DNA from: a bacterium | GTDB lineage: Bacteria; Bacteroidota; Rhodothermia; Balneolales; M1805 | Length of the DNA: 58,732 nucleotides | Direction: 5' to 3' | NCBI GenBank assembly: GCA_006226965.1 | Contig: SBGQ01000136.1 | Span: 1-58,732, forward strand | Shown here: positions 12,825 through 30,519 of the stretch, in pieces | Layout of the letters: the number at the start of each line of letters is the position of its first letter | Numbering within the stretch: the first letter of the stretch is position 1 | Translations under genes and position numbers: made by a program | Notes under the pieces: model-generated | Databases searched by the model: none | What the model saw: only the letters and a program-made list of their open reading frames with translations | Told to the model about the DNA's origin: nothing

Positions 12825-13394
12825 ATGAAATTAAATGGTTCTGTCTTAGTTCTCTCATTGTTCACCATAGCTTTTTGTGGAAAACAGAAACCTGAAACAA
12901 ATCCACAGAAACCTTTAAGCCTAACAATAGCTGACAGCATTACAATTATTGCTCAGAAAACATTGGGCGGTACGTTAATGAAACAGATAGCTGATGGCGG
13001 AGCAATGGTTGCTCTTGATTTTTGTAATCATCAAGCCATACCAATTACTGATTCTGTTGCCAATTTTTACCAAGTCAATATTCAGAGAATAGCAGAGAAA
13101 AACAGAAATCCTAAAAACGGTTTTTCATCAGAATTAGATAAAGAAGTTTGGGAATCCTATTTAACAGGTAAGGAAACAGGCATGGTAAAAAAAATCGATC
13201 CCAATGGAAATACTATTTTCTATAAGCCCATCAGAATAGGCATGGAAACCTGCCTGAATTGCCACGGAGATGCCAACCAAATTAAACCGGATGTTCTAAC
13301 TAAACTTACAGAATTGTACCCTAACGATAAGGCAACAGGATTTAAAATGAATGATTTAAGAGGTCTATGGAAAATCACGAACCTTAAACCTTAA
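12825..13394 (+). CDS. DUF3365 (Tll0287-like) haem lipoprotein
   Basis: A 189-residue lipoprotein (lipobox TIAFC, Cys18) with a DUF3365 domain, a PAS-like fold found in stand-alone periplasmic haem proteins and in sensors. The c-type haem site is C143-L-N-C146-H147 in METCLNCHGDA, followed by the family's PNDKATGFKMNDLRGLWK ending. The same domain appears as the sensor part of the broken chemotaxis receptor at 28655-30199. It probably binds haem in the periplasm for redox or gas sensing; the exact role is unknown. The last codons and the stop lie in a 7-base tandem repeat (13383-13410). The gene is convergent with agmatine deiminase, with 20 bases between stops. Confidence 0.9.
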   Translation: MKLNGSVLVLSLFTIAFCGKQKPETNPQKPLSLTIADSITIIAQKTLGGTLMKQIADGGAMVALDFCNHQAIPITDSVANFYQVNIQRIAEKNRNPKNGFSSELDKEVWESYLTGKETGMVKKIDPNGNTIFYKPIRIGMETCLNCHGDANQIKPDVLTKLTELYPNDKATGFKMNDLRGLWKITNLKP

Positions 13395-28460: not shown

Positions 28461-28494
28461 AAAGGATACTCAGCGAAATGAGTATCCTTTTTTT
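28461..28494 (+). terminator. Intrinsic terminator after trxB
   Basis: AAAGGATACTCA (28461-28472), loop GCGAAA, TGAGTATCCTTT (28479-28490), then TTTT. A 12-base perfect stem. Confidence 0.9.
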
Positions 28495-28654: not shown

Positions 28655-30199
28655 ATGTCCTTAAGCAAAAGAATCGGTCTTATTATCTCCGTTGCGGTTG
28701 TATCTGTCACACTTATAGCCATCACCGTTACCTATACCCTATCAAAAGAAAATCGCCAAGAATCATTAAAGGTTGAAATGTCCACCATTTTAGATCAATC
28801 TTTAAAAGTTCTTAAACAAACAGAAGCCTTGCATCAAGAAGGGGCAATCAACTTAAAAAAACTGGCAGATGAGGCTAAATCTGCTAAGGTTAACACCATT
28901 GAAGAACTTCGGAAACTCCCTGTTTACAAAGCTATTCCGGTTGTTATGGCGTGGACATCAGCAACAGATGCAGCGCACAAATAAGGCTTTGAGTTTTACA
29001 CGCCTGCTAGCCCGGGCTTAGTTCCACGAAACAAAGAAAATGCGCCAAAAGAAGAACATTTAGCCGCGTTTAATGCTTTTAAAGACGGTTCTGATGAATA
29101 TTTTGCAACCATCCGAAACGGAAAAGCACTTATGCTTGCACGTTCATTAAAAGCATCAGATGGATGTTTGAGTTGCCACGGAAATCCGGAGAACAGCCCC
29201 AGCGGCGACGGACGCGATATCTTTGGTTACGAAATGGAGGGCATCAAAAAAAATGCCGTTCGCGGTGCTTTTGTTATCGTTGCACCATTTGAAGACGATG
29301 CAGTTCTAGAAGCCACCATCAACCGAACTCTAATTGCAGCCGGAATCACACTTATTGTGATTATTTTCTTGAGTTCATTTTATTTGAGGAGATTCGTTTT
29401 TAGTCCGATTGAAGAAGTTATTGACCAACTCCACTCCTCTGCATCTGTTAATAAAACAATCAGCGAAGAGATTACAAGTTCATCAAAGCAACTTACACAG
29501 CACGTGGGGGAAGTGAATAATTCCTTGCAACTTGCCAGCAGCTCCATTGAGTTGCTTAACAAAGAAATGGAATCACACCATCAGTTTATTTATTCCACAA
29601 AATCGGTTTTTCAGGATACACATGTAAATGCCGAGCGTGCCGGAAAAGAAGTGAATGAAATGTCTGATGTTATTCGGGATATGAGTACTTCAGGAAATGA
29701 ATTAAAAAATCTGCTTAAAACAATTTCTGAAATTGCTTTTCAAACAAATTTATTAGCATTAAACGCTGCCGTTGAAGCTGCAAGAGCCGGCAGTTTCGGA
29801 ACAGGCTTTGCCGTTGTAGCGGAAGAAGTACGGCATTTGGCTAACAGAGCTACAGAAGTTGCTAAACGCTCGGCAGATACCATTGAACAAACAATTGCGA
29901 AACAAGAACTAGGTTTGCAATTAGATGAAAAAATTCAGAGTTCTTTAGGTTCAATTTTGAAAGACGTAAACCAGCTTGAGATTACTTTACAAGAAATGTC
30001 CGGTTCCAGCAGTCTTCAAAAAAATGAAATTTCATCGATTAGTAAAGCCATGGAAGGCATTGATTTAGTAATGCAAAATAACCTTAATCGCTCACAACAT
30101 TCGTTTGAAATGGTGAACAATATGCACCACCAAATTGACACGTTAACAGGTGCTGTGGATGTGTTAGAAGAAAATATTTACGGGCAAAAAAAAGCCTGA
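28655..30199 (+). pseudogene. Haem-sensing methyl-accepting chemotaxis protein interrupted by an in-frame TAA
   Basis: Two open frames in the same phase, 28655-28984 and 28985-30199, form one receptor of 514 codons broken only by TAA at 28982-28984 after the residues TDAAHK. The frame then continues [21 protein letters not shown], the expected next stretch of a DUF3365 sensor. Domains in order: N-terminal transmembrane helix, DUF3365 with a c-type haem site CLSCH (DNA 29165-29179), a second transmembrane helix ([18 protein letters not shown]), and a full MCP signalling domain with the hairpin tip [21 protein letters not shown]. No frameshift is needed. TAA is a normal stop elsewhere here. It may be a recent nonsense mutation, an assembly error, or readthrough; the downstream half could start at the ATG at 29132 but would lack the first helix. 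Confidence 0.85.
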
Positions 30200-30212
30200 A
30201 TTAATCAGGCTT
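30186..30212 (-). terminator. Terminator hairpin carrying both stop codons
   Basis: AAGCCTGA (30192-30199), loop ATTAA, TCAGGCTT (30205-30212). The TGA stop of the chemotaxis receptor is the end of one arm and the TGA stop of the DUF3467 gene is the start of the other. On the minus strand it is followed by eight T, so it ends the DUF3467 transcript. The T-run lies within the last codons of the receptor gene. Confidence 0.8.
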
Positions 30213-30519
30213 CCGGAATAGGTCCGCGGAAATTCATCGGGAATTCTGGTCGGTCTTTAGCGTTAATTGGACCAAACTGATCTTCGAACTTTCGCACATT
30301 ATCTTGTAGAGCATTCATTAAACGTTTTGCGTGATCTGGTGTAAGTATCATTCGTTTTACGACACGAGCTTTCGGCACACCAGGCATCACCGCAATAAAA
30401 TCGAGCACAAACTCTGATGGCGAATGTGTAATCATTGCCAAGTTGGCGTATGTACCGTTGGCTTCTTGTTCGGTTAGTTCAATTTCGAGTTGTTGGGGTT
30501 GTTTTGGATCTTGATTCAT
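30205..30519 (-). CDS. DUF3467 protein
   Basis: A 104-residue cytoplasmic protein. The pattern EANGTYANLAMITHSPSEFVLDFIAVMPG, followed by RMILTPDHAKRLMNALQDNV, is that of the DUF3467 family, small proteins widespread in bacteria with no known function. It starts 21 bases after the stop of the cystathionine beta-synthase-like gene on the same strand, so it may be cotranscribed with it. The stop codon is embedded in its terminator. Confidence 0.9.
   Translation of the reverse strand: MNQDPKQPQQLEIELTEQEANGTYANLAMITHSPSEFVLDFIAVMPGVPKARVVKRMILTPDHAKRLMNALQDNVRKFEDQFGPINAKDRPEFPMNFRGPIPEA

Follow-up and report, generated by a model that had tools for sequence, protein, structure and literature searches.

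Tll0287-like domains have been described as Cache domains that carry a covalently bound c-haem (Deshpande et al. 2026, preprint, PMC12889525). According to the sections of that preprint drawn on here, a Tll0287-like domain that is joined to a signalling module behaves like a sensor of nitric oxide (NO), one that stands alone resembles a redox protein, and the signalling sCache_heme members are slow to release NO. In-frame stop codons in bacterial genes have been surveyed by Belinky et al. (2021, PMC7918605), who, in the portion of the study used here, found them to be widespread, mostly short-lived and close to population polymorphism, and argued that many are read through; their test for readthrough requires orthologues that share the stop. 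With regard to termination itself, the relevant part of PMC5289835 gives UAA as the least leaky bacterial stop and UAAU as the strongest terminator.

The receptor gene studied here lies in the window, i.e. the whole stretch of 58,732 nucleotides that was analysed. It resembles the sCache_heme chemoreceptors, as the cited sections of PMC12889525 present them, in its Pfam domain (PF11845), its CXXCH motif, the place of the sensor between two membrane helices and the fusion to an MCPsignal domain. It differs from them in being interrupted by a stop codon and in being known here from sequence alone. Likewise, a single in-frame stop with the frame kept on both sides is what the gene has in common with the cases of Belinky et al. 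(PMC7918605); however, that study, in the part used here, required orthologues sharing the stop, and none was found for the window gene in our order and phylum samples. The features of the locus are as follows:

28461 to 28490, plus strand: terminator-like hairpin 3' of the upstream thioredoxin reductase-like gene, with a stem of 12 pairs and TTTT after it (by consensus match only)
28655 to 28984, plus strand: N-terminal fragment of 109 aa, with a cytoplasmic start, the first membrane helix and a long sensor-domain helix, ending in TAA (from the frame, hydropathy and an AlphaFold model)
28982 to 28984, plus strand: in-frame TAA, codon 110, next base G (read from the sequence)
28985 to 30199, plus strand: continuation of the frame, 404 aa, with the remaining Tll0287-like sensor, the second membrane helix, the MCP signalling domain and the natural TGA
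28787 to 29287, plus strand: Tll0287-like (DUF3365, sCache_heme) domain, residues 45-211 when read across the TAA (PF11845, 58.9 bits, cut-off 24.1)
29165 to 29179, plus strand: c-haem attachment motif CLSCH, residues 171-175 (from the sequence; CXXCH is present in 49/49 aligned relatives)
29312 to 29404, plus strand: second membrane helix, approximately residues 220-250 (hydropathy)
29612 to 30067, plus strand: MCP signalling domain with a conserved, intact hairpin tip (Pfam match and alignment with relatives)

A preliminary description of this DNA had placed both open frames in the same phase with no need of a frameshift, and this is confirmed: the receptor frame runs in one phase from the ATG at 28655 to the TGA at 30197-30199, with the TAA at 28982-28984 as its sole break. 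Read through, the frame comprises 514 codons, with 404 sense codons beyond the TAA, and the chance of an open frame of that length is about 2e-12 given the base composition of the window. On either side of the TAA, the 49 codons up to the first possible start included, codon usage is close to the median of this genome's genes. Before the TAA the codon log-odds average 0.128, after it 0.145, and over the first 49 codons after it 0.172; the sampled reference genes have a median of 0.141 when read in frame, against −0.244 (99th percentile 0.037) when read out of frame. CXXCH and the family-invariant positions are retained in the alignment with relatives. Scanning these 49 codons revealed no start codon; the first in-frame ATG beyond the TAA is at 29132 and opens an ORF of 355 aa. 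The hairpin at 28461-28490 separates the receptor from the upstream gene, and the receptor is therefore probably transcribed alone. At the other end of the gene, a GCCTGA-attaa-TCAGGC hairpin at 30194-30210, preceded by a run of A, is directly visible and overlaps the natural stop of the receptor; it would serve as terminator for the convergent minus-strand gene at 30205-30519.

The expected domains continue across the TAA, as had also been proposed. The Tll0287-like match starts ahead of the stop, with residue 45 as its first, and its score goes up from 52.7 bits for the C-terminal portion to 58.9 bits when the frame is read through, hence the domain spans the TAA. Searched on its own against Pfam, the part after the TAA matches MCPsignal (114.3 bits, cut-off 34.6) as well as the C-terminal Tll0287-like portion (52.7 bits, cut-off 24.1), and the 109 residues before the TAA, searched alone, gave no family above cut-off. 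The first membrane helix appears as a hydropathy peak at residues 3-30; the Tll0287-like domain sits between this helix and the second one, after which the MCP domain follows. The earlier assignment of the gene as a haem-sensor chemotaxis receptor cut inside its periplasmic DUF3365 domain is upheld. The Pfam search of the receptor gave no HAMP hit down to E 0.1; HAMP is common, albeit not universal, in methyl-accepting chemotaxis proteins and hence not defining. Read through, the frame encodes a receptor with two membrane helices, a c-haem Cache sensor and an MCP output. An AlphaFold model built from four sequences (mean pLDDT 62, low to moderate), which served solely to locate the TAA, has helices between residues 3 and 109, and puts the stop (residue 110) just past the helix at 95-109 and ahead of the first strand at 113-115. 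In this predicted fold the TAA precedes all strands of the sensor as well as the CLSCH haem motif, and a truncated product would consequently have none of the strand core, no haem site and no signalling domain.

The interruption was found in no relative. An order survey gave 22 Tll0287-like matches in 21 of 128 genomes, and a phylum sample 145 such matches in 121 of 394 genomes; an internal stop was observed in 1/22 and 1/145, respectively, in both cases the window receptor, so that the stop is shared by 0/21 other order matches and 0/144 other phylum matches. Searching 244 genomes of the class with the post-TAA part (E 1e-5 or better) recovered only three other homologues, L010 (genome G051, 511 aa), L011 (G008, 558 aa) and L012 (G047, 503 aa, cut by the end of its contig). 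All three belong to the same order and are uninterrupted Tll0287-MCP receptors with the same layout and domain order, and no indel breaks the signalling helices. These nearest homologues are 28-30% identical to the window receptor over the frame, too distant for the TAA mutation to be dated via sister species, and the matches listed include none from its own genus or family. A scan of genome contigs gave one distant locus, from Cytobacillus. For the alignment column of the TAA, 51 loci were tried and 49 retained (L029 and L119 had no domain hit and were dropped); the column is variable, with leucine in 17, tyrosine in 7, lysine in 6 and others in the remainder, and thus does not name the lost residue.

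The evolutionary rate of the gene was judged from summed branch lengths. In a full-frame tree of seven full-length receptors the window branch measures 1.09, against 0.99 for L011 and 0.82 for L010 from the same node, and in a tree of the post-TAA part the corresponding values are 1.03, 1.05 and 0.91. The part after the TAA has evolved no faster than in relatives, and the closeness of the window branch to theirs indicates that the gene evolved as an ordinary constrained receptor until recently. Against this stands the part before the TAA, which resembles the relatives less than would be expected. Its tree topology was unsupported and only identities were used: this part is 23-25% identical to relatives, compared with 28-32% for the part after the TAA, whereas between L010 and L011 it is the pre-TAA part that is better kept (48% vs 41% after). 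It is a separate observation that the pre-TAA part (28655-28981) is unusually diverged, the relatives sharing 48-77% with each other there. The lack of further stops caps neutral change only at approximately 64 substitutions in 1542 bases (95%); it agrees with a recent mutation and gives no date.

The background rate of such interruptions in the same genome is low. Matches to MCPsignal (12), HATPase_c (72), CheW (7) and Flagellin_N (5) included zero true internal stops; one HATPase_c gene, on contig C27, was flagged as a second TAA-interrupted gene and rejected, the TAA being the natural terminator of its ORF. Across 467,733 sampled bases, the window included, 22 same-frame neighbours were coding-like on both sides of the stop, and in 19 of them a start codon lies at most 6 codons from the stop. 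The remaining three are a CheW gene with an MCP gene after it (C127 near 5521, rejected as a second split), a frame judged to be due to chance, with short segments and another stop close upstream (L141, C45 near 85949), and the window receptor. No second gene split like the receptor was thus found in the sampled bases, and with one true case in the survey and family matches free of internal stops the genome is not riddled with them. Loss of chemotaxis as a whole is not supported as a cause, since the 12 MCPsignal, 7 CheW and 5 Flagellin_N matches are all without internal stops and the genome otherwise has its machinery for chemotaxis. Three separate CheA/CheW-type clusters, on contigs C101, C56 and C127 of this genome (G000), and several flagellin genes suggest that it has more than one chemosensory system. 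A stand-alone Tll0287-like protein of 189 aa with a CLNCH motif and a lipoprotein-like start is encoded at 12825-13394 on the plus strand, 15 kb from the receptor; this protein and the interrupted receptor are the only Tll0287-like matches above the Pfam cut-off in the genome.

The lone lesion, the continued codon signal, the kept family residues and the stop-free relatives make a nonsense mutation the best explanation. We consider it probable that a single recent mutation of this kind, fixed in the strain or polymorphic, interrupts an otherwise well-kept haem-sensor chemoreceptor gene, whose relatives have the frame without the premature stop. The preliminary description had offered three options, among them a fresh nonsense mutation of a named residue: the mutation is the best supported of the three, whereas the residue is not inferable from so variable a column. 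The main rival is a consensus or assembly error, in which case the true codon would be a sense codon and the receptor gene uninterrupted. A lone substitution that spoils a frame with no other flaw, in a draft of 184 contigs, does have the look of a single wrong base. Still, such an error is rather unlikely here: the sampled bases hold no second split, so there is no visible sign of an error-rich assembly, and short-read consensus sequences seldom contain isolated wrong bases. Conversely, the stop could be genuine and the receptor nonetheless be made in two parts, the second through internal initiation. The ORF from the ATG at 29132 would hold the haem motif, the second membrane helix and the MCP domain; however, this first start lies 49 codons past the TAA, inside the sensor domain, where 19/22 of the sampled neighbours have theirs within 6 codons, and the product would be without the first membrane helix, which would be needed for export of the haem domain. 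A split receptor of this type is accordingly given almost no credence.

Readthrough, with some ribosomes passing the TAA to give low levels of full receptor, is very unlikely as well. The frame beyond the TAA is perfectly kept, the base after the stop is G and not the U of the strongest context (PMC5289835, in the part cited), and readthrough has been proposed for many of the in-frame stops in PMC7918605, as far as that study is used here. Yet UAA is the stop that PMC5289835, in the same part, ranks as least leaky in bacteria, and TAAG is an ordinary terminator in this genome: of the 223 sampled ORFs that reach 250 aa, 163 end in TAA, 29 of these as TAAG. The same count rejects genome-wide recoding of TAA, in agreement with the earlier exclusion of a change in the whole code. 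No tRNA with a UUA anticodon was present among the 36 tRNAs found after scoring 150 of 355 first-look candidates, a set that is incomplete, as it holds no Ala or Ile tRNA. Likewise, no stable RNA structure was found in the 100 bases after the TAA, which fold worse than average (z +1.49, 188/200 shuffles at least as stable). A programmed or recoded stop would be recognised by conservation among orthologues, a decoding tRNA or downstream RNA structure; the TAA is common to no relative in the order and phylum samples, and the true readthrough considered earlier thus finds no positive evidence in these data.

Returning to the nonsense mutation, we infer that it is recent and that translation terminates at the TAA. 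Termination after 109 residues would leave a short membrane-anchored helix with neither haem site nor signalling domain, and the sequenced cells would, on that account, almost certainly be devoid of the receptor. By analogy with the sCache_heme domains, an uninterrupted form of it would have been a sensor of nitric oxide or redox state, steering movement by NO. A further reading, to which we assign very little probability, is that the TAA is maintained in the population, where it acts as a switch or damper, with low readthrough or frequent reversion setting the share of cells that have a haem-based chemoreceptor for NO or redox state.

The observation holds, but it is an ordinary one. For routine annotation it means that the gene should be flagged as interrupted, and not entered as two proteins. 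It would carry more weight if the TAA proved to be polymorphic or read through, since the strain's habitat would then be tied to a haem-based chemoreceptor for NO or redox state that is lost or damped.
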